Below, piece by piece: positions 4,279-57,449 of a DNA stretch of 64,000 bases. A model generated the notes under the pieces. It was not told where the DNA came from, did no database searches, and saw nothing but the letters and a program-made list of their open reading frames with translations. The position numbers and the translations under genes were made by a program. Origin of the DNA: Streptococcus devriesei DSM 19639 (lineage in GTDB: Bacteria; Bacillota; Bacilli; Lactobacillales; Streptococcaceae). Positions within the stretch are counted from its first letter, which is position 1. Every line of letters starts with the position of its first letter. The DNA is taken from NCBI RefSeq assembly GCF_000423725.1, contig NZ_KE384084.1, forward strand, positions 570,222-634,221. Reading direction: 5' to 3'.

Positions 4279-5397
4279 TTAAAATTGCCATCTATTAATC
4301 AGGGCATTTCTTTCTTTTATGATATCGTCATTTTCTGAATCAATGCTTAAAATAAAGTCCCGCAATTCTTCTGTCGGTTTTTTGACAATCTCTCCCAAAG
4401 CCCAGATGGCTGTTGCCCGATGAATAGGATTTTGGCTGCTGTCAATGATTTCCAGAAGCTTCACGACGGCACTTTTATCATAGGCATTAGCCAGAGCAAT
4501 GATGGCGTTGCGCTGCAAAATATTCTTTCCCCGCCAGGAACCGGCAATCCTGCCGAATTTTTTCGTAAACTGACTGTTAGATAAATTTAAAAAAGGAATT
4601 AATTCTGGTTCTGCCAAATCAGGATCGATAGGACTGGCCAAGGAGTTATTGAGCCCTTTATTATAGGGGCAGCAAATCTGGCAAATATCACAGCCATAAA
4701 TGACTGTCTTAATTTTCTTTCTGAATTCCAGATCCATCATGCCCTTATCCTGTGTCTGAAAGGAAAGACAGCGCTTAGCGTTCATGCTGCCATCCCCCAG
4801 CAAACAGGACGTCGGACAGGCATCCAGACAGCGGCGGCAGTCACCGCAGGCATAATCTACAGGACTGTCCGGCTCGATCTCCAGATTGGTGATCAATTCT
4901 CCCAGATACATGTAGGAACCGAATTCTTTAGAAATGACCAAGCCGTTTTTGCCGATAAAACCAATGCCGGCCCGCTGAGCCACGGCCGTATCAACAAGCG
5001 CTCCGGTGTCCACCATTCCTTTATACTCAAAATTTTCAGTCAGCTTTTCGATGCCTTCTGCCAAACGTTTGAGCTTATCCTGCAAAACATAGTGATAGTC
5101 CAGACCCCAGCTGTTAGGAGTAATCTTGCCGCGCCGGTACTGTGTTTTAGGCGGTTTCACAGGCAGCCTGTGCGGATAGGCCACAGCAATGGAAATGATT
5201 GTTTTGGCACTTGCCAAAGAGAGTTTAGGTTTAATCCGCTCCTCAATATTTTTATGTTCAAAACCTGAAGAACGCCCTTCCTCAACAGAAGCGCGCAGCG
5301 ATTTTTCCAAGTAAGCAAAATCATCGGCAGTTGTAAAACCGATTTTTGAAATTCCGATTTCCTGGGCCAGCTTTTGGATTTCTTCTTTAATGTTCAT
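4279..5397 (-). CDS. queG: Epoxyqueuosine reductase QueG
   Basis: The product has 372 residues. It carries two 4Fe-4S binding motifs: Cys184, 187, 190 and 194 (CGDCRRCLDACP), and a second set including Cys236, 239 and 243 (CDICQICCP). The N-terminal half is the cobalamin-binding reductase domain and the C-terminus is HEAT-repeat-like. QueG performs the last step of queuosine biosynthesis in tRNA, reducing epoxyqueuosine with cobalamin. The start has no clear Shine-Dalgarno sequence; a promoter -10 element ends 6 bases before the ATG (see the promoter entry). Confidence 0.9.
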   Translation of the reverse strand: MNIKEEIQKLAQEIGISKIGFTTADDFAYLEKSLRASVEEGRSSGFEHKNIEERIKPKLSLASAKTIISIAVAYPHRLPVKPPKTQYRRGKITPNSWGLDYHYVLQDKLKRLAEGIEKLTENFEYKGMVDTGALVDTAVAQRAGIGFIGKNGLVISKEFGSYMYLGELITNLEIEPDSPVDYACGDCRRCLDACPTSCLLGDGSMNAKRCLSFQTQDKGMMDLEFRKKIKTVIYGCDICQICCPYNKGLNNSLASPIDPDLAEPELIPFLNLSNSQFTKKFGRIAGSWRGKNILQRNAIIALANAYDKSAVVKLLEIIDSSQNPIHRATAIWALGEIVKKPTEELRDFILSIDSENDDIIKERNALINRWQF

Positions 5398-20534: not shown

Positions 20535-20571
20535 TAAAAGAAAAAGACCTGTTTATTTGATAAACAAGTCT
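20535..20571 (-). terminator. Riboswitch expression-platform terminator
   Basis: On the minus strand GACTTGTTTA and TAAACAGGTC form a stem followed by a T-rich run, between the aptamer and the ATPase gene. Metal binding would decide whether it forms. Confidence 0.75.
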
Positions 20572-20572
20572 C

Positions 20573-20650
20573 GCTATTTAATATGTTGCCGGAAAACAGT
20601 TTCGGATTGACGACAACATCACGGCAAAACCGCTAGCTACTCCCTTGATA
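20573..20650 (-). promoter_or_regulatory. yybP-ykoY manganese riboswitch
   Basis: The minus-strand leader carries GGGAGTAGC, a GTTGTCGTCAAT segment and a TTCCGGCAACAT segment, the signature of the yybP-ykoY aptamer. It is placed between a clear promoter and a terminator hairpin just before the cation ATPase gene. Mn2+ binding is known to allow read-through in this family. Confidence 0.85.
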
Positions 20651-33960: not shown

Positions 33961-34347
33961 TCACTTTTTGTCTTTGTAAACTTTCTGGTAAAATTCAATT
34001 TTATCGCCGTCTTTGACCTTAATCTTATCAGCAGATTTAGAGGCTAATTTATTGTTTACATCAAACATCCAGTAACGTCCGGTTTTCTTATCCTGGGACA
34101 GGCCGTCAATGGCTGTGATGAAGCCGCCCTTTTCTTTCACTTTGTAGTTAGCTTTCAGCACGTCCATCACTGTGTCTCCCTTTTTAAAGGAAACTTTTTC
34201 GTCAGTTTTATCCGAACCGGTCTTAACAATCAGCCTGACCTGAAAGTCTTCAGACGTCTTGGCTCTGCTGTTACTTTCGCTGTCGCTGCAAGCTGCTAGA
34301 AAGAGAACGATTCCGGTTAAGACTAAAAATTCATATAGTTTTTTCAT
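33961..34347 (-). CDS. DUF4430 lipoprotein
   Basis: The product has 128 residues with a lipoprotein signal (LFLAACSDSE; lipobox LAAC near residue 20) followed by a DUF4430-like domain. DUF4430 is related to the cobalamin-binding domain of intrinsic factor and transcobalamin. It would be tethered to the outer membrane face and bind a small molecule or peptide. The start at 34347 has an AGGAG site. It follows the ECF substrate protein gene directly, which suggests a shared transport task. Confidence 0.82.
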   Translation of the reverse strand: MKKLYEFLVLTGIVLFLAACSDSESNSRAKTSEDFQVRLIVKTGSDKTDEKVSFKKGDTVMDVLKANYKVKEKGGFITAIDGLSQDKKTGRYWMFDVNNKLASKSADKIKVKDGDKIEFYQKVYKDKK

Positions 34348-34846
34348 TGGATAATAATCTCCTAAAAATGGATAAAATAATGGGATAAAAGAGTACCGTT
34401 GACACAGCATGCATCAGATTGAACGTCATGCCAGCCAAAATATAAGCAAGGAGTGGAGCTGCAAACAGTAAGGCTGAGTAAGCATCAATAACGATACCGT
34501 AGATAACGCTCAGCAGACCTGCCAAAACAGCCTGCAGAATTATCTGATTTATGCTGCCAAGCCGCAAAGACTTTGTCAGGGGATAACAAATGAATTTCCA
34601 TAAGAATAAGATGCTGCCAAAACCAATAATCTGTCCTAAAACCCAAGGGCCGAAGCCCAGCAGAAAACTGGTAACCAGCATTGTTACAGACATAATCAAA
34701 AAGCTTTCCCAAAATCCGTAAAAAACTGCGCATACTAAAAAGATGGCAGTTATCGGCTGAATATTGGGCAGACCGGCAAAAGCGATTCGCAAAACAATCG
34801 CTAATGCTGACAAAATCGCAACGCGGCTAATTTTTTGAAGCGGCAT
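34331..34846 (-). CDS. ECF transporter substrate-binding (S) component
   Basis: The product has about 171 residues and is hydrophobic, with five or six membrane segments and the short N-terminal helix typical of ECF S-components. The substrate is unknown; the neighbouring lipoprotein and MetE-like gene suggest a cobalamin- or methionine-related compound. Its ATG at 34846 lies one base after the stop of the upstream gene, with GGGGATA as ribosome site. It overlaps the lipoprotein gene by 17 bases. Confidence 0.78.
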   Translation of the reverse strand: MPLQKISRVAILSALAIVLRIAFAGLPNIQPITAIFLVCAVFYGFWESFLIMSVTMLVTSFLLGFGPWVLGQIIGFGSILFLWKFICYPLTKSLRLGSINQIILQAVLAGLLSVIYGIVIDAYSALLFAAPLLAYILAGMTFNLMHAVSTVLFYPIILSIFRRLLSNEKTI

Positions 34847-34847
34847 A

Positions 34848-35978
34848 TTATCCCCAAACGTCATCAATAATTTCTTTTACAAGTTCTAATTTAGCCCATT
34901 GATCTTCCTCTGTCAAGATATTTCCTTCTTCTGTTGAGGCAAACCCGCACTGTGTGGACAGCCAAAGCTGATCCAGCGGCAAATACTGGCTGGCCTCTTT
35001 AAGACGGGCAATGACAGCCTCTTTATCTTCAAGTTTAGCATCCTTTGACGTAATCAAGCCAAGGACAGCCACCTTATCCGGATCCCTGAAATCTGCTAAC
35101 GGTTCAAAACCGCCTGCACGCTCGCTGTCAAATTCTAAAAAGTAAGTTTTTGCTGCTTCTTCGCCAAACAGTTCATGCGCAACCGGACCGTATCCGCCTG
35201 ATGAAGCCCATGTTGAATGATAGTTGCCTCGGCAGACATGAGTATTGACCTGCAAACCGTCCGGAACATTTTGATAGACATCATTATTTAAGGTCAGAAA
35301 AATATCTGCCAATTCATCTCTGACTTGTTTAGAGCTTTTATCCTGCGGAGCACCCCAAGCTGTCAAAAAGGCTTCGTCAACCAAGGTTCCCCAGGTGCAG
35401 TCATCTACCTGAAGCGTCCTCAGACCAGCCTTATATAGATCTTCTATGACTGTCAGGTAAGCTTTTTTGATATCCTGCCTCAATGCAGCAAAATCAGGAT
35501 AAACTTCCTTTAATTTTGCGACATGCTCAGCATCGCGGATCAATTCAAAATAGAACTGTGCCGGTGCCGGAATTGTGTATTTGGCTTCGACACCTTCCTT
35601 ATCAGCAAGGAGATCATATAAGAACTTATAATCGGCAACAAAAGGATGGTTTTCTCCGCTTATCTTTCCGGCAATCAGGGCCGAATCAGCCTTGGTTGTC
35701 TCATCATGAAAGTGGTAGCCTTCTGCCGCCTGAACATGGTCAATTCCTTGAAAGCCCCAGAAAAAATCTAAGTGCCAGTAAGCACGGCGGAATTCACCAT
35801 CAGTTACCTTCTCAAGTCCCGCTGCTATCTCCTTATCAACCAATTCTTTGATCAGCCGATCTTCAACGGCCCGCAGTTCTTCTTTGGAAATTTTTCCAGC
35901 TTCAAATTCTTCCCGTGCTTTTTTCAGAGCTTCTGGGCGTAAAAAGCTGCCAACGTGTTCAAAATATTTTTTTGTCAT
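34848..35978 (-). CDS. Core-MetE type methionine synthase family protein
   Basis: The product has 376 residues, only the C-terminal (catalytic) half of cobalamin-independent methionine synthase. It has FLRPEALKKAR near the start, the zinc-site motif NTHVCRGNY near 230 and STQCGFAST near 340. Family members (YxjG/YxjH, MesA-D) transfer a methyl group to homocysteine from non-folate donors. The ATG at 35978 has an AGGAGC site. It heads a cluster with the ECF and DUF4430 genes. Confidence 0.85.
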   Translation of the reverse strand: MTKKYFEHVGSFLRPEALKKAREEFEAGKISKEELRAVEDRLIKELVDKEIAAGLEKVTDGEFRRAYWHLDFFWGFQGIDHVQAAEGYHFHDETTKADSALIAGKISGENHPFVADYKFLYDLLADKEGVEAKYTIPAPAQFYFELIRDAEHVAKLKEVYPDFAALRQDIKKAYLTVIEDLYKAGLRTLQVDDCTWGTLVDEAFLTAWGAPQDKSSKQVRDELADIFLTLNNDVYQNVPDGLQVNTHVCRGNYHSTWASSGGYGPVAHELFGEEAAKTYFLEFDSERAGGFEPLADFRDPDKVAVLGLITSKDAKLEDKEAVIARLKEASQYLPLDQLWLSTQCGFASTEEGNILTEEDQWAKLELVKEIIDDVWG

Positions 35979-36111
35979 TTTTTGCTCCTTATCAAATAGA
36001 TAGAAATGATTATCTCTCATTTTATCATCTGTTCCTATAGCTGTAAAATATAAATATATTATGATTTTCTATAACTAATAACTATACCTCGTGCTCTAAA
36101 GCAGACATATT

Positions 36112-36993: not shown

Positions 36994-37040
36994 GCTTGAC
37001 AGCTGCTAGGTTCCGTCATATAATGTAGTTAATAGAATAT

Positions 37041-37122
37041 CACAAGGAGTGCTTCTTAGCTGAGATTGCCTTTTGCAAAATCCTATGGACCTGATCTAGT
37101 TAATACTAGCGTGGGGATGTGA
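37041..37122 (+). promoter_or_regulatory. TPP (thiamine pyrophosphate) riboswitch
   Basis: The element has the THI-box features CTGAGA, TGGACCTGATCTAGTTAATACTAGCG-like segment and a closing CACA...TGTG pairing. It lies just upstream of thiT and controls thiamine uptake. Confidence 0.9.
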
Positions 37123-37146
37123 CTAATTGATGAAATTAACACATGC

Positions 37147-37170
37147 AGACTCCTTGAATGAAGGGGGTCT
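37147..37170 (+). terminator. TPP riboswitch expression hairpin over the thiT ribosome site
   Basis: AGACTCCTT pairs with AAGGGGGTCT, followed by TTTTT. The hairpin contains the AAGGGGG ribosome site, so it can act as a terminator or block translation. Confidence 0.7.
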
Positions 37171-37174
37171 TTTT

Positions 37175-37744
37175 ATGTCCAAAAATTCAGTCATTCTGGT
37201 TGAAGCGGCTCTGGCTGCTGCTTTAGCTATGGTCCTGTCACTCCTGCCTGATTTTGCCAGTTGGTTTACACCATCTTTTGGAGCCATTCCGCTCATCATC
37301 TTCGCCTTAAGAAGAGGAGCTAAGTACGGGATTTTATCCGGCCTGCTCTGGGGACTGCTGCATTTTCTTTTGGCAAAGGTCTACTATCTAAGTTTTTCTC
37401 AGGTCATTCTGGAATATCTCCTTGCTTTTCTGTGCATGGGTTTTGCCGGATTTATGCAAGCTCCTTTTCAACAGGCTCTTAACAAAGGAAAGAAGACAAA
37501 AGCGCTGTCTTATGCCATTATCGGTGCTTTTATCGCTACCCTCAGTCGGTATATCTGCCATTACATCGCCGGGTTCATCTTTTGGGGAAGTTACGCACCC
37601 AAAGGAATGTCTCCTTTTTGGTACTCTTTTACTGTCAATGGCAGTGCGGGACTGTTTACCTTCCTAGTGGTTATTTTGGTTTTGCTTGTCCTCGTGCCAA
37701 GTCAGCCGCAGTTCTTTTTGCCTAAGACTAAGAACAAGAGCTGA
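37175..37744 (+). CDS. thiT: ECF transporter S component ThiT (thiamine)
   Basis: The product has 189 residues with six membrane segments. It has the thiamine-binding ThiT pattern, including WGLLHFLLAKVYY. It binds thiamine and works with the EcfAAT energising module. The ATG at 37175 lies 7 bases after AAGGGGG. The upstream TPP riboswitch confirms the substrate class. Confidence 0.9.
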   Translation: MSKNSVILVEAALAAALAMVLSLLPDFASWFTPSFGAIPLIIFALRRGAKYGILSGLLWGLLHFLLAKVYYLSFSQVILEYLLAFLCMGFAGFMQAPFQQALNKGKKTKALSYAIIGAFIATLSRYICHYIAGFIFWGSYAPKGMSPFWYSFTVNGSAGLFTFLVVILVLLVLVPSQPQFFLPKTKNKS

Positions 37745-46620: not shown

Positions 46621-47529
46621 TTATTGTGTTGCTATTCTACCAATGAAACAGAAATACAATAACTCTTTAAACTCTATTTGCTCAATAGTGTTAGACAAAT
46701 ATGTATCTAGATTTTTTGATTGATAATATTTCGAGGCATCTTCAAATGTTCTATATATACCACCCGAAGCCAATTTTACACGAGGATTTCGTATTTTTGT
46801 ACTAAGTAATCCGAATGCATTGTTGAATTTTCTTAATTCAAATGGTAGTTCGCCCTCACGAAAATCTTCATTATATTCTATTATTTCTTCCTCTGTAGGA
46901 TAATGCATTGCAGAAATTTCATCTTTATTGCTAATTAACCAACAATATGCTGATTCCCAACTCCTACTTTTTACTAAGGATAACAAATATTTATCTATCA
47001 ACATAACATTGTCAAAGCCTTTTATATCCAATAATTTTTGTAAAGTACGAAATCTTATCTCAGGTGGCAGTTGAGAGAACAGTGATAATACGTTCTTATC
47101 TGACTTTAAACTCAAATTATATTTCAAAAAATATTGAATAAATAGGAAAGAAAATAAATCCCAAATTAAATTTTCAGTTTCCAGAAATTCTTCCATACTA
47201 GCCGTCATGTGATTTTGTGTATGAGAATACTTATTACCAATTTCTCTAAGATTATTTACTGTAGCTTCAAAGTCTTCACGTAATATGTCATCTACAGAAT
47301 TAAGTCTTTCAGTCGTTTTATATCTTGGATTTTTAACTGAAGTAGTAATATCTCCTAATTCCATTTTTTCACTTTTACCCAAATTTAAAAATCTGCGAGT
47401 AATTAATTCAGTCAATTTACGCAGTAAGACAATCTTACTACTTATACTGATATTAGAATAATATATATCTGCAATTAAGTCTGAAATCAATACTTCATAA
47501 TCACTATTATCAAAGGGGGTTATTGCCAT
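46621..47529 (-). CDS. DUF4145-like protein of the defence operon
   Basis: The product has 302 residues with no confident family match. Residues about 90-105 contain LREIGNKYSHT, similar to the R-x-IGN-x-x-H signature of DUF4145 domains, which occur in restriction-modification proteins. It is rich in Ile, Lys and Asn and has no membrane segment. It lies downstream of the 34-residue peptide gene and a terminator hairpin, with a clear AGGAG site. It is probably a third part of the Type ISP/SIR2/HerA defence operon, as a sensor, effector or regulator. Confidence 0.7.
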   Translation of the reverse strand: MAITPFDNSDYEVLISDLIADIYYSNISISSKIVLLRKLTELITRRFLNLGKSEKMELGDITTSVKNPRYKTTERLNSVDDILREDFEATVNNLREIGNKYSHTQNHMTASMEEFLETENLIWDLFSFLFIQYFLKYNLSLKSDKNVLSLFSQLPPEIRFRTLQKLLDIKGFDNVMLIDKYLLSLVKSRSWESAYCWLISNKDEISAMHYPTEEEIIEYNEDFREGELPFELRKFNNAFGLLSTKIRNPRVKLASGGIYRTFEDASKYYQSKNLDTYLSNTIEQIEFKELLYFCFIGRIATQ

Positions 47530-47540
47530 ATTTTTACTCC

Positions 47541-47574
47541 TAAAAAAGCATACGAAACTACAGTTCCATATGCT
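47541..47574 (-). terminator. Terminator/attenuator between 34-aa peptide and 302-aa gene
   Basis: On the minus strand AGCATATGGAAC and GTTTCGTATGCT form a 12-bp stem with loop TGTA, then TTTTTT. It could reduce expression of the 302-residue gene. Confidence 0.75.
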
Positions 47575-47595
47575 TGACAGTTACTCACTAGAAAC

Positions 47596-47700
47596 CTAAT
47601 CATTTGCAAGTTGTGCAAGAGCGATTTCTTTATATGAAGTAACAACTTCCGATGCTAGTCCAATAAGGGCTAGAATAATTTTTGTCAAATCGACTTCCAT
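47596..47700 (-). CDS. 34-residue hydrophobic peptide in the defence operon
   Basis: A short open reading frame of 34 codons from ATG 47700 to TAG, with a very strong AAGGAGG site. The sequence begins MEVDLTKIILALIGLASEVV, is hydrophobic and helical, and ends in acidic residues. It is not a shadow of a longer gene. It may be a small membrane peptide, toxin or regulator. It sits between herA and the 302-residue gene. Confidence 0.6.
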   Translation of the reverse strand: MEVDLTKIILALIGLASEVVTSYKEIALAQLAND

Positions 47701-47807
47701 TATTTCTTCCTCCTTCTAGACACTTCCTGTGCCAAAAACCGAGGACTAACATCAATATAATTTTATATTTGAAAAAGTACTTTGTCAACTCATTTTTATG
47801 TCAAACT

Positions 47808-49436
47808 TTATAGTAGACTAGGGGTATCATTATGGTGCGGTCGACTACATTTATCTACTTTTATGTAAAGGTCTTTAAGAAGATTGATACTTGTTAAAAC
47901 TGCTTCACCAGTATTTAATTTCTTAAGTTGATTTAACTGATTTTCAGATAGATGATTTTGAACCGCTTTTAATTCATCAGATGCTGTTAATCTATGTAAC
48001 ACCATTGTTCCGATTTGACCAAGTAATATTTTATCTACGTCATTTGGATTCTGAGTGGTTAAAAACAGAAAAATCCCCTTCTTTCGTCCCTCCCTAGCGA
48101 TACTATTTAAACCTGTATAGAAAGAAACACCATCATTAGTCAATGATTTCGTATATCGGTGAATTTCATCTACAAAAATTATGAATGGATTTATTCTATC
48201 CTTTGCAATATTGATGAGAAAGTTCGTTATCAAGTCGACAATCATTCCACCGATTTCATCAGTAGTTCCTATTTTTGAGGCATCTATGTACAGTGATTTT
48301 TTTGTATCACTCATCGTCCACTCTTCAATAATATTTAGCAATCCTTGATGACTGGAGTCAAAAAAATTTAGAAAGCTTGTGTTTGATAATTTGTAATCTA
48401 TCTTTTGGACTAAATATTGATTAGAATTAAAGTTAAAATCATCATAAATAAAATATGACAGTTTCCCTCTTCTTTCTCGTTTTATAGCTTCATTTGACAC
48501 TTGTTCAGACAGTAACTGAATTTCAAAATCCTTATCACTTGGAGATAGGGAAGCTATGTTACTAATTACTTCATCCACCCTTTTTTCAATTTTAATGTAT
48601 ACGCTTGATTGATTAATCTTTTTCTGGTATCTCAATGAATTTATAGCAGCAGCTAAAACTGCTGGCTGAGTTCCGTCATTAGTTTCAAATAATATAGACC
48701 ATTGTTGCATAGAAAGTGCTGAGACTGAAATAAAGGCATCTTCGCCTAAGACATACTTATCCACCTCATCATCAGTAAATGAATCAGAATATTCCCCTGT
48801 TGGATCTATTATCAATGTTCTTATGCCATCATTAACTAACTTATCTAAAATACTCAAAGCTGAGGTGGATTTCCCACTATTTGTGGTACCGACAGTCATC
48901 AAATGTCGATTAAATAGGGTTTTAGGCTGTAATTTTATAGGGTATTCTTGGGAACTAAATGCAAGATTAGCGAAAGAGGATAGTTTTTTCTCACTATCAG
49001 GATTCACCTCTATTGATTTGATAAACAGTTCCACAGCTTTCTCATTCGCAATATACACCTTGTCAGTAATACCAACAGTATTGGTTCCGTTTAATTTAAA
49101 ATATTTTTCACCCAACGGTATATATCCAAGTATATCTATGTTTATTTCTGGAAATATTTTTTCTTGCTGTCCTTTTGTTAACATTTCATGAACACTATCG
49201 GAATTTGGCACTTTAGATTGAAATATCTCCCCAAAGAATAAGCCATTGCTTGAATCGACCAAGACATAGAAATTTATAGTATTAGGTGCAAGAATATCTG
49301 TCCTTAACTTTCTATATGAAAAGAGCGATAAATTTTCTATCTGAATTGTCGAATAGGAACGGTTGACTTGGGAAATCATTCCAAGATAATAGTTACTCTT
49401 ATCAGCCACTTTATAAAAACTATCAATAATCGTCAT
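47808..49436 (-). CDS. HerA-like ATPase (DUF87 family)
   Basis: The product has 542 residues. Walker A GTTNSGKST is at 183-191 and Walker B IIFVDEIHR at 419-427, with SIAREGRKKG downstream (a likely arginine finger). It belongs to the HerA/FtsK ATPases that form hexamers on DNA. In SIR2-HerA systems (Nezha) the pair forms a large complex that depletes NAD+ on phage infection. Its start overlaps the SIR2 gene by 14 bases, so the two are translated together. Confidence 0.88.
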   Translation of the reverse strand: MTIIDSFYKVADKSNYYLGMISQVNRSYSTIQIENLSLFSYRKLRTDILAPNTINFYVLVDSSNGLFFGEIFQSKVPNSDSVHEMLTKGQQEKIFPEINIDILGYIPLGEKYFKLNGTNTVGITDKVYIANEKAVELFIKSIEVNPDSEKKLSSFANLAFSSQEYPIKLQPKTLFNRHLMTVGTTNSGKSTSALSILDKLVNDGIRTLIIDPTGEYSDSFTDDEVDKYVLGEDAFISVSALSMQQWSILFETNDGTQPAVLAAAINSLRYQKKINQSSVYIKIEKRVDEVISNIASLSPSDKDFEIQLLSEQVSNEAIKRERRGKLSYFIYDDFNFNSNQYLVQKIDYKLSNTSFLNFFDSSHQGLLNIIEEWTMSDTKKSLYIDASKIGTTDEIGGMIVDLITNFLINIAKDRINPFIIFVDEIHRYTKSLTNDGVSFYTGLNSIAREGRKKGIFLFLTTQNPNDVDKILLGQIGTMVLHRLTASDELKAVQNHLSENQLNQLKKLNTGEAVLTSINLLKDLYIKVDKCSRPHHNDTPSLL

Positions 49437-50799
49437 TTAAATACCTTCCACTCAAGTAATCAACTAAATCGCTATTCATAGTTGCCTTTAAAAATGATAT
49501 AGGATATCCTTCTTCCATCATTCGCACAAGTTCAGCCCAATTTTGATTATATTTAGCATCAGTTTCTCCAATCTCAATATATTCATTATTATCACTACTC
49601 CATTCTCTATTCGGATCAATATTATAGTCAGTGACCAATAGCTTTAGGCTTGAGTTGTTCTTTAAAGCTTGGGTAATCATTTTAGAAATATGGTCATCCG
49701 CAAAACTAAATCCAGACGAAATTAACAGAGTATTTGGCCGCTTAATAAGTTCTTGGAATTTGGTAAACAGTTCAAAATACGGTTCTTGATAACTTTGAGC
49801 AAATTTATCAGAACTAGGAAAGACCATTACCATCTTATCTGTATCTGTAATACTATCCTTATTTTTTCTCAAAATATCGCCATTGTCTTGCTTTTCCCAA
49901 GTCAACGAACCATGGATTTTGACAAGATTAAAAGTCTTATCTTTAAATTCAACTTCTCTAGTATTGACGTTCTGAACCTCTTTTATAAGATTCCATTCAA
50001 ACATATTACTGTCAAATTTAGGGCGTGGGGTAAAATTAAATCCATCAAAAATAACAAAATTATTTTCCGCCGCAGCCTCCTCTATCAATGCATCATAATT
50101 GGTTGTGATAATAGAAAATTTATTTCCATCTTTTCCTGATAAGCCTGATAAAAGATTTAATAATGCCCCGTGTTTCAACACTTTATTATTATAAGAATAA
50201 TTAGTATTTTCCTTGATTAGTTGTAGGATTTTTTCAACTGTTCGATTGAATTGTTCTTTGTCTTCTATTGGAACATATGGACGATAATGAAACAATGTAG
50301 ATAGAAAGTCTTCTAAATTAAAACCATCATCTAATTTGGGAGTATTGGGTTGCTCAGAATCGGTAGAATCTAATATTACACCATCTCTATATCTACATTT
50401 ATCAGCCAATTCTTCTAATGTGTATAAGTCATCTGACTCATGTAATTTCTCAAACACATCATCAGCAATCATTTTGACTGTTTTTCCATATTCGGGGTTT
50501 AAATCAGGGGTTACTGAAGCCCCAGCTCCTGCTAGAAAAACAATATTTGAGTATTTCTCGCCATAAATGGTTTTACGAATTTTTTCGCTAATTAAGTGCC
50601 TGAAATCCTTCTCTTGGAATAGATTTTGGTCTTCACCTTTCGGATTTTGTTTTTCAAGTAATCCGTTCGAATCGTAAAATTCATTACCATTATTTTTATC
50701 AATCCCATATGAAATTGAATTTGATAAATAGTGTAATTCTATTTGATTATCTTTTGGTTTATTCTCATCGTCAAAAAAGAAGAAAAACATAAAACTCAC
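49423..50799 (-). CDS. SIR2-domain protein
   Basis: The product has 458 residues. The SIR2-family NAD-binding motifs are intact: GAGAS at 91-95, TTNYD at 232-236 (Asn234) and KIHGS at 294-298 (His296). Such proteins hydrolyse NAD+ as abortive effectors. N-terminal residues 1-80 are divergent. It follows the Type ISP gene after 2 bases, with a GGAGTGAG site, and is followed by herA. The motifs and gene order match SIR2-HerA anti-phage systems. Confidence 0.88.
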   Translation of the reverse strand: MSFMFFFFFDDENKPKDNQIELHYLSNSISYGIDKNNGNEFYDSNGLLEKQNPKGEDQNLFQEKDFRHLISEKIRKTIYGEKYSNIVFLAGAGASVTPDLNPEYGKTVKMIADDVFEKLHESDDLYTLEELADKCRYRDGVILDSTDSEQPNTPKLDDGFNLEDFLSTLFHYRPYVPIEDKEQFNRTVEKILQLIKENTNYSYNNKVLKHGALLNLLSGLSGKDGNKFSIITTNYDALIEEAAAENNFVIFDGFNFTPRPKFDSNMFEWNLIKEVQNVNTREVEFKDKTFNLVKIHGSLTWEKQDNGDILRKNKDSITDTDKMVMVFPSSDKFAQSYQEPYFELFTKFQELIKRPNTLLISSGFSFADDHISKMITQALKNNSSLKLLVTDYNIDPNREWSSDNNEYIEIGETDAKYNQNWAELVRMMEEGYPISFLKATMNSDLVDYLSGRYLNDDY

Positions 50800-50801
50800 T
50801 C

Positions 50802-53800
50802 CTACTCCTCCACTTCAAATTTCGGCAAACTATTGACCAAATCAACAGTCTGCATTGACACATTGATGATTCTCAGCAAGAGATTAAAGATATACTTTTC
50901 ATCTGTACTGTAGTCATTTGGGTCATCAGTGATGCCAGATTTTTTATCCGTTTTAACCTGATATTGGTCCATAATCCACTCAATAGCTGAACGACCATTG
51001 ACCATGTACTCATAAGCTTTCTCAGGAATACTCTTGATAGTGATATCGTTATTATAGACAATCGCAGAGCGATCCCCTTTTTTGATGAATTTCATCTTCG
51101 TAACCTTGTAAGAAGGCCAAGCTGATAACTGAATTTCTACATCATCATAGACAGGGACTTCCTCATAGTTGAGGTGCAAGTCCATCAAGGCTTTACCGAC
51201 TTCGACATACTTTTCCTTATGCTTAGCTATCGGAATCCGAGCCAAATCCTTCTTCAAATCATTGGCATACCTTTCTTGATAATCACGAGAATTAAGCAAA
51301 CCATAGACATAGGCAAACGTGTCATCCAAACTCAATCCAAGTTTATCCGCAAAAGCCTGATTCATATTATCATGAGATTGGAAAAGCGCTGTTTCATCCA
51401 CTTCGTTATCGTAACGCATGAAACTTTGAGCTTTTTCCAGACTATCCATGTTAGGTATTAAATTTGTTATCAATGGAGAAAAATCACGAGATACACCTCT
51501 ACCTGTTGTTAAGATAACAAGATTTCCTTCACCAAATTTCTTATACCATTGACCAGGACGTTCTACGACATCATTACCGTAATAGAGATTTTTCTTTGTA
51601 AATGGACGATATAATGATTTAATAATCTTATCCTTATTAAATTGGATTTTTTTAGATTTCAAAATTGAATCTTCCAGTTTTACAGACCACTTTATAAAAT
51701 TATCATCTCGATTCAATAGCGATTTCCGTTCATCAATTTGTACCGAATTTAATCTCTCTAATTCAGAATTATAATTAGAGATTAGCTTATGGCTATTTTG
51801 CTCTACATTTTGTTTTGAAAAATTATATACCCAGCTATCACGATTAGTTGAAACACCTATAATATTTTGAGTAAACACCGAATCCTGCTCTCCAGCCATG
51901 ACAGCATACTTCTGGTAATTCGGGTCTCGTTGGTTGAGCCAGTCATTATTATCATCAGGTGTAATATCTTGCCATTCAATTGCTGAAATGTCACCGAAGT
52001 CAGAAATGATATTTAGCTTTTCTTTTTGCGATAGATAATCACCAATATCATGGTAATGAATTTCATGACTATCTGAGCCATCCTTGACTAAGATCGAAAT
52101 AGCAACTGTTGTTCGTGTCCCTCCGCCAAAGACATTTCCTCCTTCCTTTTTACGGAGTTCTCCAAGTCCAAGGGCATTCCCACGCATATTAAAAATATAA
52201 AGGTGATTAAAATCTTCATAAAGTCCCGCTCGCAAACCGTCTGTTGAATTTGAATTTAGGAAACCACCATTAGTCACAAACCCAATCACACCTTTGTCTT
52301 TGAGACGGTCAGATGCCCAGCGAAAAGCTTTTACATAAGAATCGTAAAGCCCTTTTGTCAATCCTGCATTTGATTTTTCAACATAAGTTTCTGCCAAGCG
52401 TTTATCTAATTTCGGATAAGAAATATTTTGGTTATTGTCGTTTTGACTACCTTGTCCGATAGAGTACGGCGGATTGCCAATAATAGCGGTAATTGGCTTT
52501 TCTTGCTGGCGCTTGAGACGCTTATCATTTGTACCAAAGAAGGAGTCATCTAGCGTATCTTCATTCTCCGTGGATTCAAAGGTATCAGTCAGGACAATGC
52601 CTTCAAATGGAAGATAAGCTTCTTCTCCGTTAATGTCATCAAAGACTGCTTCAATGTTGATAGCAGCAATATAATAGCTGAGCAGGACGATTTCATTGGC
52701 ATGGAGTTCTTGCGTGTATTTTCTGAGCAAGTCTGCATAGGTAATTTCTCCCTTATCCATGAGAGATTTGAGGTAGTGGAGGGTTCTGGTGATAAAGGTA
52801 CCCGTACCTGTAAATGGATCAAGAATATGGACATTTTCACTGGCTAAAGTCTTGCCAAAATGCTTCCTCAAGACAACATCAACTGACTTGACGATAAAGT
52901 CCACAACCTCAACAGGCGTAAAGACGATACCTAGACGCTCTGTGGTTGTTTTGAAACCAGTTGAGAAAAACTTATCATACAACGTGATGATGATTTTCTG
53001 CTTGGCTTGGGCATTATCAATCCCTTCTGCACGTAGTCTTACAGAGTCATAGAAAGGCTGCAATTCTTGCTGTTCTTTTTCAAAGCCATATTGAGACAGT
53101 TCGGCTACGATTTGCTCCATGGCAGAGCTGACAGGGTTGTTTTTGATAAAGCCATACTCACCAAATAGAGCGTCAAAGATGGGCAAGGTAATCAGATGCT
53201 GAGCCAACATTTCAATAGCTTGATTTTGGTCAATAGATTCATTGATATTATGCTGTAAGCTATGCAAGAAGCGTTCAAAAGCTTTTCGACTATCAGGATT
53301 TTGGTCAAGAATGATATTGATGCCTTGGACATGACGTCGTGCAATATCTGCCACATCTTTTGACCAATCTTCCAGATAGCGTCTATCTCCCACTTTTTGA
53401 ACGATTTTACCGTAGATAGCGCCCTCAACAGCTTCCCATTCTAATTCAAGTTCAGTCTGATAGCCTACTGTTGGTTCATCTACAAATCCACCACCAAAAT
53501 TCGGATCATCAGGAGCACCACCTACACCAATCACTTGAATATTCTTTGGTTTTTTCTTATTCAATTCAAGTTTGTTGATCGTTGCTTCAAACCGTTCATC
53601 GACAGAACGAAGGGCATTTAAAACTTGCCAAACCACATCGTAAGACTTGTTATTATCTAAAATTGTTTCAGGTGTTTCACCTGCTGGTACAACGATAGGC
53701 AAAATGATATAGCCGTAATCTTTTCCTTCAAATTTACGAATAATCCGACCAACCGCTTGGACAATATCCACCTGTGATTTACGAGGAGATAGGAAAATAA

Positions 53801-55478
53801 TAGCATCTAAGTTTGGAACATCAATGCCTTCTGTCAAAAATCGTACATTTGACAGGATACGAGCAGAATCCTCTGGAATATCATCACTTCCCAACCAATC
53901 TAAAGCTTCATTTTTCTCAAGTGCATTCATCCCACCGTCAACATGACGGACATTAACGGAATAACCTTCTTCGCTATTAAGATAATCATTAACAACATTT
54001 TCAAACTGTTCTGAAAGCCGCTTACTATCTTTGATTGTCCTTGAGAATGCGATGGCGCGTTTCATTGGCTCCCCTGAAACCTTATCTGAGAAACTCTCAC
54101 GCTTAATCATACCATTCCAAACACCGATAATACGTCCGACATCATCAATATTTAGACCATTTTCAGGGTCAGACAGCGATTTTTGCATATCTTTTTGTAC
54201 AACTTTTTCATCAACTGCCAAGACCATTAGTTTATAGTCAGTCAGAATATCATGACTAATGGCATCTCCAAAGCCAAGACGATAAAAGACTTTACCGTAT
54301 AGACTTTCATCGTCCATACTAGATATGAGGATAGAGTTGCTTTCAGCTTTCTTTTTGGCCTCTGTTCCGTACAATTTAGGCGTTGCCGTTTGATAAAGAC
54401 GTTTGTGACCTTTAACATTTGAGTTCCTATGGACTTTGGTAAAGGATGAATCATCATCACCTAAAGCTTTTGCACCAGTCGTTCGGTGAGCTTCATCAGC
54501 AATAATCAAGTCAAAGTCTGGAAAACCATTTTGTTGTGCTTTCCCCAGAACATCAATAGATTGATAGGTACCAAAGACAACTAACAACTCTTTTTTAGGA
54601 TGCTCCATCAACTCTTGGTAGTTTTCAACGACTTTTTTAGACGATGTAGTCGCAGGGTAACCAATATCACTAGCTTTTATAGTAATATTTGACTCATCTT
54701 GTTTAACACTTCCACGGCTGGCATTTCTATCACTAGTAACTGCCATTGAAGACATGCTCATATCTGTATCATTATTCCAGCCACGCAAGGTCTGAGTGAG
54801 GAGCTGAATACTTGGAACAAGATAAAGCACCGTAAATTGTTCTTTACCAGCTTCTTTTGCCATAGCTTCTGCAACTTTCAAACTCGTAAATGTTTTTCCC
54901 GTTCCAGGAGCCATAATGAGCTGACCACGATCATTTCCTTTGAAATACTCTAAGGCTGACTTGATAACATCTCTTTGGTAATACCTAGGTTGCTTCTTCG
55001 CTTTTACTTGGACTTCATCTGGTCGTTCGAAAGAAAATTTCGTCCAATCAATTCTAGAATTTCTTAAGTCCGATAACCCCACACGGACAATATCACTTCT
55101 ATCCGCCAATGCTTTTTCAGCATTTTTTCCCCACTTATCAGTAGAAGCTACAATAATACCAGATTCATAGTAGCTCTTCCCTAACTCACTCAAAAAGGAA
55201 TCAATATTAGACTTTTGTATAGCATGATTGTAGAACTTAGCTTGAATCGCTACCAGTTCACCAGTGTGCTTTTCAGCAACTAAATCCACACCAATATCAG
55301 CTTTAGGAATCCTGAACTCCTCTGGAACTTCTGATAGCATCCAGACGTTTTTAAATTCATTTTGATAGGTTGGTTCATTTTGAAAATAAGCACGAACGAG
55401 ATATTCAAAATAGGTTCCTCTATCTCGCTGTGATTCCGCTATCTTATTAATTTGTGCAACTAAGTTATCAAAAGACAT
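50802..55478 (-). CDS. Type ISP restriction-modification enzyme (single chain)
   Basis: The product has 1558 residues in the LlaGI/LlaBIII plan. It has an N-terminal Mrr-like nuclease (E25, D65, Q79-A-K81), then a superfamily 2 helicase (APGTGKT 190-196, DEAH 328-331, SAT-like motif QTATP), a coupler, an N6-adenine methyltransferase (DPFTGTGTF near 888, NPPY near 1003) and a target-recognition C-terminus. It cuts unmethylated foreign DNA after translocation and methylates host DNA. A GGAGG site precedes the ATG. It heads the defence operon. Confidence 0.9.
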   Translation of the reverse strand: MSFDNLVAQINKIAESQRDRGTYFEYLVRAYFQNEPTYQNEFKNVWMLSEVPEEFRIPKADIGVDLVAEKHTGELVAIQAKFYNHAIQKSNIDSFLSELGKSYYESGIIVASTDKWGKNAEKALADRSDIVRVGLSDLRNSRIDWTKFSFERPDEVQVKAKKQPRYYQRDVIKSALEYFKGNDRGQLIMAPGTGKTFTSLKVAEAMAKEAGKEQFTVLYLVPSIQLLTQTLRGWNNDTDMSMSSMAVTSDRNASRGSVKQDESNITIKASDIGYPATTSSKKVVENYQELMEHPKKELLVVFGTYQSIDVLGKAQQNGFPDFDLIIADEAHRTTGAKALGDDDSSFTKVHRNSNVKGHKRLYQTATPKLYGTEAKKKAESNSILISSMDDESLYGKVFYRLGFGDAISHDILTDYKLMVLAVDEKVVQKDMQKSLSDPENGLNIDDVGRIIGVWNGMIKRESFSDKVSGEPMKRAIAFSRTIKDSKRLSEQFENVVNDYLNSEEGYSVNVRHVDGGMNALEKNEALDWLGSDDIPEDSARILSNVRFLTEGIDVPNLDAIIFLSPRKSQVDIVQAVGRIIRKFEGKDYGYIILPIVVPAGETPETILDNNKSYDVVWQVLNALRSVDERFEATINKLELNKKKPKNIQVIGVGGAPDDPNFGGGFVDEPTVGYQTELELEWEAVEGAIYGKIVQKVGDRRYLEDWSKDVADIARRHVQGINIILDQNPDSRKAFERFLHSLQHNINESIDQNQAIEMLAQHLITLPIFDALFGEYGFIKNNPVSSAMEQIVAELSQYGFEKEQQELQPFYDSVRLRAEGIDNAQAKQKIIITLYDKFFSTGFKTTTERLGIVFTPVEVVDFIVKSVDVVLRKHFGKTLASENVHILDPFTGTGTFITRTLHYLKSLMDKGEITYADLLRKYTQELHANEIVLLSYYIAAINIEAVFDDINGEEAYLPFEGIVLTDTFESTENEDTLDDSFFGTNDKRLKRQQEKPITAIIGNPPYSIGQGSQNDNNQNISYPKLDKRLAETYVEKSNAGLTKGLYDSYVKAFRWASDRLKDKGVIGFVTNGGFLNSNSTDGLRAGLYEDFNHLYIFNMRGNALGLGELRKKEGGNVFGGGTRTTVAISILVKDGSDSHEIHYHDIGDYLSQKEKLNIISDFGDISAIEWQDITPDDNNDWLNQRDPNYQKYAVMAGEQDSVFTQNIIGVSTNRDSWVYNFSKQNVEQNSHKLISNYNSELERLNSVQIDERKSLLNRDDNFIKWSVKLEDSILKSKKIQFNKDKIIKSLYRPFTKKNLYYGNDVVERPGQWYKKFGEGNLVILTTGRGVSRDFSPLITNLIPNMDSLEKAQSFMRYDNEVDETALFQSHDNMNQAFADKLGLSLDDTFAYVYGLLNSRDYQERYANDLKKDLARIPIAKHKEKYVEVGKALMDLHLNYEEVPVYDDVEIQLSAWPSYKVTKMKFIKKGDRSAIVYNNDITIKSIPEKAYEYMVNGRSAIEWIMDQYQVKTDKKSGITDDPNDYSTDEKYIFNLLLRIINVSMQTVDLVNSLPKFEVEE

Positions 55479-56618: not shown

Positions 56619-57449
56619 ATGACTCTCGATACATTTACCGAAGAGGCACTCCAGTTCCGTCTACAGTTAAATATCATGACCTTAACGGCTGGGAAAACAC
56701 CTGCTGCTGTCCCAACTGCTATTCTTCTTGGTGGTCAAAGTGGAGCTGGGAAAACAGTGATTCATCGTCTGAAATCTAGTGAGTTTAAGGGAAACATCAT
56801 TGTCATTGATGGTGATAGCTTTCGTAGTCAACACCCAAACTACAAGGAACTTCATGCTCAATTTGGAAAAGATGACGTGGAATACACCAAAGAGTTTGCT
56901 GGGAAAATGGTTGAAGCTCTCATCAATGAACTCAGTCAAAAAGGCTTCAACCTTTTGATTGAAGGGACACTTAGAACTTCCCAAGTTCCTCTAAAGACTG
57001 CTCAATTACTAAAAAGTAGAAACTACCTAGTTCATCTAGCTATCATGGCGACAAAACCTGAACTATCCTACCTCAGTACCTTGGTCAGATATGAGGAAAT
57101 GTTCCTACAATCACCTGACTCTGCACGAAGTACTCCAAAAGACCATCATGATGCCATTGTTCATCACTTACCATCAAACGTTCAAGAACTCCAAGACAGT
57201 ATGATTTTTGACAGCATTCAAATCTATAATCGTCAAAAAGAATTGTTATTTGATAATGATAACACTGCTATTCGTGCTCGTCTAGAAAGCTTATTGTTTG
57301 GTTACTGGACGAGATTTGAAATCACAAATTTCGAAACGTCTCTTGAAAAACTAAATGAGTTAAGTCAACAAAACCACCATGATGATGAGTATGAAGACTA
57401 TCTCATCACTGCACAAAATAAACTAAAGGAATTGAAAAAAGAAAAATGA
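56619..57449 (+). CDS. pezT: PezT zeta-type toxin
   Basis: The product has 276 residues. LLGGQSGAGKT gives the Walker A near 37-47, and VIDGDSFRSQHP and EGTLRT follow as in zeta toxins. It phosphorylates UDP-N-acetylglucosamine and blocks wall synthesis. It starts 1 base after the pezA stop. The C-terminus is longer than pneumococcal PezT by about 20 residues. No frame damage is visible, so it may be active. Confidence 0.93.
   Translation: MTLDTFTEEALQFRLQLNIMTLTAGKTPAAVPTAILLGGQSGAGKTVIHRLKSSEFKGNIIVIDGDSFRSQHPNYKELHAQFGKDDVEYTKEFAGKMVEALINELSQKGFNLLIEGTLRTSQVPLKTAQLLKSRNYLVHLAIMATKPELSYLSTLVRYEEMFLQSPDSARSTPKDHHDAIVHHLPSNVQELQDSMIFDSIQIYNRQKELLFDNDNTAIRARLESLLFGYWTRFEITNFETSLEKLNELSQQNHHDDEYEDYLITAQNKLKELKKEK

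Follow-up and report, generated by a model that had tools for sequence, protein, structure and literature searches.

What might a predicted vitamin B12 importer do behind a methionine-type promoter, next to a MetE-like enzyme without its folate-binding half? The question is raised by three genes at positions 33961-35978 of the 64,000-nucleotide stretch of Streptococcus devriesei DSM 19639 analysed here (the window; contig NZ_KE384084.1, positions 570,222 to 634,221). They encode a core-MetE enzyme, an S-component of an energy-coupling factor (ECF) transporter and a DUF4430 lipoprotein. All three are present on the minus strand as overlapping or nearly adjoining genes, as the preliminary description of this DNA had it. 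It is quite probable that the three genes form an operon under methionine control, the second and third of them importing B12, with the cobalamin-dependent enzyme QueG as the client. The gene for QueG lies in the same window, about 29 kb from the cluster. The features concerned are as follows.

36070..36086, minus strand: MET box 1, farther from the gene, matching the consensus at 12 of 14 positions
36036..36052, minus strand: MET box 2, nearer the gene, also matching the consensus at 12 of 14 positions and spaced exactly 34 bp from box 1
34848..35978, minus strand: core-MetE (PF01717; NCBIfam PRK06233/PRK06520), 376 residues, ATG at 35978, first gene; from its family models, we take it to be YxjG/YxjH-like
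34331..34846, minus strand: predicted CbrT-type ECF S-component for vitamin B12, 171 residues, PF12822 above cut-off, PDB match 6fnp_A
33961..34347, minus strand: DUF4430 lipoprotein, predicted transcobalamin beta-domain fold, 128 residues, PF14478 at E 6e-25, LAAC lipobox
4279..5397, minus strand: QueG, cobalamin-dependent epoxyqueuosine reductase, outside the operon; TIGR00276 at E 8.7e-113 (376 bits, cut-off 200), PF08331

The ATG of the S-component lies 1 nt past the core-MetE stop, and the DUF4430 gene overlaps the S-component gene by 17 nt. The neighbour first described as a transporter is indeed a PF12822 S-component that matches ECF-CbrT. Searched against the whole PDB, it gave 6fnp_A as its sole match, at E 1.3e-16 with the single sequence and 2.9e-27 with a 24-row profile; the S-component searches used window 34331-34852, which carries two extra residues ahead of the ATG. 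6FNP is the vitamin B12 transporter ECF-CbrT of Lactobacillus delbrueckii, and the S-component aligns with it nearly end to end (query 4-159). The paper describing it (PMC5997447) reports cbrT in S. pyogenes and suggests that Lactobacillales homologues at 25-60% identity share the function of CbrT. Among the matches listed, the closest named relatives are those of S. ratti (88% identity) and S. 'caviae' (86%). By sequence, the membrane protein is a CbrT-like S-component whose cargo is likely a corrinoid. The EcfT/CbiQ family PF02361, which would supply the shared part of the transporter, is found twice elsewhere in the genome, with the best match on contig C12 (E 1.5e-49). The surroundings differ from those in L. 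delbrueckii, where CbrT sits in an nrdJ-cbrS-cbrT-pduO cluster (PMC5997447): here core-MetE and a DUF4430 lipoprotein stand behind MET boxes, with no NrdJ, PduO or MetH, and the B12 enzyme that is tracked is QueG.

The lipoprotein had been described as being of a cobalamin-binding type, and its predicted model agrees with this in fold (mean pLDDT 82, with the blocks within residues 41-120 at 93-98). The 19 PDB matches of the model at E 0.001 or less include no protein other than 3u7z, transcobalamin, haptocorrin and intrinsic factor. 3u7z is described as a putative metal-binding protein and is presumably itself a DUF4430 protein. In the VIA comparison 3u7z and the beta domains of the carriers score Z 13.0-14.8, and the next rows 8.3 and less; these other beta-grasp matches (sulfur carriers, toxin-pore domains) were set aside as sharing only a common arrangement. 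The ordered part, about residues 32-125, resembles the carrier beta domains of 5NP4, 5NO0, 4KKI and 2PMV with a root-mean-square deviation of 1.7-7.4 and 13-24% identity. According to its title, 5np4 is the transcobalamin beta domain alone, bound to cyanocobalamin, so B12 can be bound by a domain of such shape even when the other half is missing. Unlike the transcobalamin-type carriers, the protein is a membrane-anchored bacterial lipoprotein with no alpha-barrel domain. It is likely a cobalamin carrier of the beta-domain type, as predicted from the model, a shared fold being no proof of binding. Possibly it is the CbrS of the L. delbrueckii cluster, an equation of CbrS with DUF4430 that we infer. 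A DUF4430 protein adjoins rtpR in L. rhamnosus, and an extra lipoprotein is annotated as part of a putative cobalamin ECF transporter (both in PMC9963975). The DUF4430 gene follows the S-component gene in 30 of 30 genus loci (the best of 83 CbrT loci were annotated for neighbours), and it follows in 53 of 53 named Streptococcus loci. For the named CbrT loci the 80 best of 129 matches were taken, several of them from strains of the same species.

The case for QueG rests on the distribution of the two genes. The presence or absence of CbrT, QueG, QueH, QueT, core-MetE and PF02310 was recorded in 147 Streptococcus genomes, of which 83 have CbrT, 84 QueG, 82 QueH, 146 QueT and 70 any core-MetE. 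CbrT occurs in 82 of the 84 genomes with QueG versus 1 of the 63 without it (Fisher p 6e-38). The correlation persists on two LysS single-gene trees, where Pagel's likelihood ratios of 30.4 and 31.3 (p 4e-6 and 3e-6) favour the dependent model. The trees hold 140 of the 147 genomes; the seven omitted (G106, G108, G128, G129, G134, G137, G145) have neither CbrT nor QueG. QueH is present in all 63 genomes without QueG, and every one of the 147 has QueG, QueH or both. Both occur together in 19 genomes, 18 of them with CbrT, and CbrT is found in 1 of the 63 QueH-only genomes. Since 146 of the 147 genomes have QueT, and all those lacking QueG have QueH, CbrT follows QueG and not the whole queuosine pathway. 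As an observation in its own right, the B12-dependent QueG and the B12-free QueH exchange cleanly for the same tRNA step across the 147 genomes.

Gene neighbourhoods and wider sampling add to this. In four genomes, each of a different genus, QueG and CbrT are no more than 300 bp apart, counted between the two matches: head to head in G041, tail to tail in G334 and G404, and on the same strand in G472. In an order-level sample of 395 genomes, a strong CbrT match was obtained in 194, and 180 of these have QueG; the counts are not corrected for the tree and use a cut between strong and weak matches (E of about 1e-20 or less) set by hand. The QueG of S. thermophilus is known to hold base-off cob(II)alamin (PMC4646009). 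No paper linking CbrT and QueG in streptococci was found in the literature searched, which carries no claim for subscription papers; CbrT and QueG are both named, and treated apart, in the portions available of PMC6593275 and PMC10378866. Taken on sequence evidence, QueG is the best-supported candidate client of the imported B12.

The methionine side of the proposed operon comes from its promoter. Two sites matching the MET box consensus TATAGTT-n3-AACTATA (14 scored positions) precede core-MetE; when the window was shuffled 100 times, two or more matches at 12/14 arose in 5 cases. A pair spaced exactly 34 bp start to start is found in 17 of 19 core-MetE/CbrT promoters (that of the window and 18 related ones), and 0.7% of simulated sequences hold a pair spaced 29-36 bp; the 19 promoters are mutually related, and the simulation was built from their own base make-up. 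Upstream of the first core-MetE, a box of at least 12/14 occurs in 18 of 18 named loci, versus 0.8% in simulation. Among 30 core-MetE loci from the genus search, 28 have a box of at least 11/14 and 20 one of at least 12/14. In the genome of S. devriesei, boxes also precede metE, metA, metQ-like and MetY-like genes (named by reading the protein starts) and a second core-MetE. In S. pneumoniae, the MET box has been verified as the site of the activator CmhR (PMC5359408). With Rfam at gathering thresholds, the window showed no cobalamin riboswitch; the only matches were a thiamine pyrophosphate (TPP) riboswitch ahead of ThiT, on the opposite strand, and the small RNA SSRC10. The link between the cluster and methionine put forward in the preliminary description thus stands in part, in that the promoter bears the boxes of the methionine regulon and control by it is predicted. 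For the importer itself, only the promoter boxes and the neighbourhood point to a methionine purpose.

Several observations weigh against the reading of a methionine-regulated operon that imports B12 for QueG. The correlation of CbrT with QueG is carried by only 6 and 7 Fitch steps on a single-gene tree. Individual genomes depart from it: in G018 the S-component is diverged (27% identity) and QueG is missing, G109 has a partial QueG and no CbrT, and G053 keeps QueG and an intact core-MetE with no CbrT match. Between a GTPase gene and queG, G053 is without CbrT and DUF4430; G041, with the same gene order, has both there. QueG is near CbrT in only 2 of 100 loci, and none was seen within the examined stretch in the other 98. 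At the order level, 78 of 258 QueG genomes have no strong CbrT match, and 49 have none at E 1e-10, so that other B12 importers must exist. That the PF02310 B12-binding domain was found in none of the 147 Streptococcus genomes (12 of 14 control genomes were positive) speaks in favour of QueG, yet the search does not cover class II ribonucleotide reductase, diol dehydratase and ethanolamine lyase, B12 enzymes that lack this domain. No DUF4430 gene was seen in any of 14 Lactococcus CbrT loci. Single boxes with up to two mismatches number 21 sites genome-wide, against 30 for a reversed control pattern; single boxes being at chance, the argument relies on the 34-bp pair and its conservation. An mtaR mutation in S. 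agalactiae altered one of three box-bearing loci (PMC2627894), hence the presence of a box is no proof of regulation. Finally, why methionine should switch the supplier of QueG is accounted for only by history.

The enzyme encoded by the first gene was said to lack the folate-binding half, and this is what its 376 residues show: PF01717 is present and the N-terminal half is not full, PF08267 matching best over residues 18-63 only. The zinc residues H247, C249, E282 and C344 and the homocysteine residues S11, E62 and D192 (list from PMC7857596, section 11) are invariant in 22 aligned proteins, and all seven align with the genome's own full-length MetE. Alignments A1 (24 rows) and A2 (22 rows) were picked from 30 loci, leaving out rows whose end coordinates ran into the stop and near-duplicates. 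The protein is predicted to be a zinc-dependent homocysteine methyltransferase, and that it uses a methyl donor other than folate is a fair inference. Like MesA-MesD (PMC7857596), it has a single MetE catalytic domain with the zinc and homocysteine residues conserved. Unlike them, in a comparison made by family scores only, it matches PRK06233 (below cut-off) and PRK06520 (above) with 378 and 373 bits, and other methionine synthase models with at most 58 bits. The nearest solved structure is 1ypx of Listeria (E 2.9e-91; 37% in Foldseek with the predicted model); the MesD protein 3rpd matches by sequence at E 4e-5 and is also matched by the model. In the main text of PMC7857596 there is no mention of YxjG, YxjH, Streptococc-, Listeria or Lactobacillus.

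A likeness to YxjG/YxjH and to Listeria 1YPX is seen in the closest structure, and also in expression, since L. paracasei YxjH, together with luxS, is reported to be under control of a methionine T-box (PMC6004538). Unlike that gene, the gene in the window has paired MET boxes and joins B12 import genes. Other core methionine synthases use methylcobalamin in vitro (PMC7857596; PMC7005905). The available text of two papers on core-MetE in marine bacteria (PMC12366255, PMC12478193) gives no donor for the family of the window enzyme; a mes-like mutant of Phaeobacter inhibens keeps its response to dimethylsulfoniopropionate (PMC12366255). The genome of S. devriesei also encodes a full-length MetE and a second core-MetE (G000:C1:204672-205885), 59-60% identical to the first. 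The second copy lies 1.5 kb downstream of a gene read as formate-tetrahydrofolate ligase and is preceded by an exact MET box with a second box 34 bp away.

The three genes are found together beyond S. devriesei, the preliminary description having made their co-occurrence elsewhere the point on which its idea could fail. In 17 of the 53 named Streptococcus loci, core-MetE lies upstream of CbrT and DUF4430 on the same strand (no more than 7 kb away and in most cases adjacent), as a single copy, as two different classes in tandem or as two in reverse order; the identity classes (about 75, 60, 45 and 40%) were assigned by hand. In L246, L257, L261 and L290, two classes stand in tandem directly ahead of CbrT, and the second copy has only 8-9 of 14 MET-box positions in its own upstream; because it is without a MET box of its own, the tandem pairs look co-transcribed. 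In a sample of CbrT loci without core-MetE (29 of 36 Streptococcus and 7 of 13 Lactococcus loci), a box of at least 12/14 lies upstream of CbrT in 4 of 36. These four (L243, L248, L252 and L256), with boxes of 12-13/14, may mean that methionine controls B12 import directly, or may be left over from a core-MetE since lost. In Lactococcus, MetH and a protein of about 225 residues flank CbrT in 5 of 14 loci, and in Lactococcus insecticola core-MetE, the 225-residue protein, CbrT and MetH follow in succession behind a 34-bp MET-box pair. Neither the 225-residue protein nor the CbrT of the Lactococcus MetH locus has a Pfam match at E 0.001; our guess is that the former is a MetH activation protein.

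Could the importer serve core-MetE itself, so that methylcobalamin or another methylated corrinoid methylates homocysteine in a B12-linked methionine pathway of its own? We consider this rather unlikely. The recurrent placing of core-MetE ahead of CbrT, in several orders, from three paralogue classes and often with two in tandem, speaks for it, as do the run of genes in L. insecticola, the use of methylcobalamin by the other core synthases and the boxes ahead of CbrT in loci without core-MetE. The association of core-MetE with CbrT has a Fisher p of 4e-11 over the 147 genomes; it is marginal or gone on the tree and was set aside as evidence, with p on the two trees of 0.05 and 0.18 for the three classes pooled, 0.29 and 0.30 for the window class, and 0.79 and 0.78 for any core-MetE. 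Of the 83 genomes with CbrT, 24 lack core-MetE of every kind, and of the 70 with core-MetE, 11 lack CbrT. B12, moreover, is a trace vitamin and hardly a stoichiometric donor, and no PF02310 protein that could re-methylate it was found among the 147 genomes. Two genomes provide one case each way on whether core-MetE depends upon CbrT: G056, in which CbrT and QueG are absent, has core-MetE interrupted, with its two pieces in different frames, whereas G053 keeps core-MetE without CbrT. The preliminary description had suggested import of a corrinoid for methionine synthesis; the corrinoid importer is probably right, and the methionine purpose is doubtful, as CbrT tracks QueG and the link to core-MetE fades on the tree. 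Another proposal is that the adjacency of core-MetE and CbrT is history only, the two sharing a methionine regulon while the donor of core-MetE is an unrelated small molecule that enters by another route. We regard this as possible, if somewhat doubtful. The MetH-CbrT loci of Lactococcus and the YxjH-luxS genes under a methionine T-box agree with it, and core-MetE is lost or retained without clear dependence on CbrT on the tree. The order GH25/(core-MetE)/CbrT/DUF4430/PPC is the same with or without core-MetE in many Streptococcus loci, which fits loss from one ancestral locus. Conversely, the three paralogue classes, their differing orders (S. entericus L246 versus S. porci L290) and the loci with no GH25 in sight (L246, L257, L261, L290) suggest repeated association.

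Other cargoes are disfavoured. The tight tracking of CbrT with QueG would also be expected of a transporter for a queuosine precursor (preQ1 or queuine), which we hold to be very improbable. This candidate was rejected because the predicted precursor transporter QueT is already present in 146 of 147 genomes and CbrT is missing in 62 of 63 QueH-only genomes; in addition, CbrT is the only PDB match of the S-component, and the lipoprotein resembles cobalamin carriers. ECF S-components within one Pfam family can differ in cargo, and an ECF heme importer has reportedly been described in Staphylococcus lugdunensis (PMC7299338). Import of heme or another tetrapyrrole by this cluster would nevertheless be a great surprise, as both the profile and the single-sequence PDB searches return only the B12 transporter, and in some other genomes CbrT stands beside MetH or QueG, each of which is a B12 enzyme.

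Returning to B12 import for QueG, a scheme may be proposed from the gene families, folds, co-occurrence, boxes and neighbourhoods read in the sequences, for the cargo, its handover, the supply of QueG, co-transcription, regulation and history. The lipoprotein, anchored outside the membrane, would hold cobalamin in its transcobalamin-beta-like domain and hand it to CbrT. CbrT would dock on the cell's shared ECF module, with an EcfT-family protein encoded elsewhere, and move cobalamin inward. The imported B12 would serve QueG in making queuosine in tRNA, and species with QueH only would do without the importer. Core-MetE would be produced under methionine shortage as a zinc-dependent homocysteine methyltransferase. 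As for the origin of the arrangement, CbrT may earlier have supplied MetH under methionine control, as apparently it still does in some Lactococcus, and it was probably already under that control when it served this B12-dependent enzyme. Streptococci would then have lost MetH and kept CbrT for QueG, with core-MetE staying in the same regulon. An additional step is conceivable and on balance improbable: core-MetE could strip the methyl group from imported methylcobalamin onto zinc-bound homocysteine, freeing cobalamin for QueG, with methionine as a by-product. In such a B12-processing role it would parallel human MMACHC.

The cluster is flanked by GH25 and ThiT on one side and by phosphoenolpyruvate carboxylase (PPC) and an FtsW-like protein (label by reading) on the other. 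A TPP riboswitch lies directly before ThiT (window 37035-37744, plus strand; Rfam), which places a second vitamin S-component about 2.3 kb from CbrT on the opposite strand. Further away, window 46621-55478 (minus strand) holds a defence-like island; SIR2-HerA pairs are an anti-phage system. These and the other features are:

46621-47529, minus strand: 302-residue protein, no Pfam or PADLOC match
47808-49436, minus strand: HerA ATPase, defence-like island
49423-50799, minus strand: SIR2-like protein, defence-like island
50802-55478, minus strand: type ISP restriction-modification enzyme, 1558 residues, defence-like island
56619-57449, plus strand: Zeta-toxin-family kinase, PF06414 at E 1.8e-52, just beyond the island
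20539-20649, minus strand: Streptococcus sRNA SSRC10, Rfam RF02617, just upstream of a gene read as a P-type cation ATPase

The cluster is a new combination of known parts. The fold also suggests a function for DUF4430, by name a domain of unknown function: it may be a bacterial version of the beta domain of cobalamin carriers. With a B12 importer next door, the methyl donor of YxjG/YxjH-type core-MetE becomes open to testing. If core-MetE were indeed a B12-processing enzyme directly behind the importer, it would tie the queuosine of tRNA to methionine status. For the streptococci that have the importer, the need for B12 may come down to one tRNA-modifying enzyme, QueG, with the B12-free QueH as the alternative that would let the importer go.

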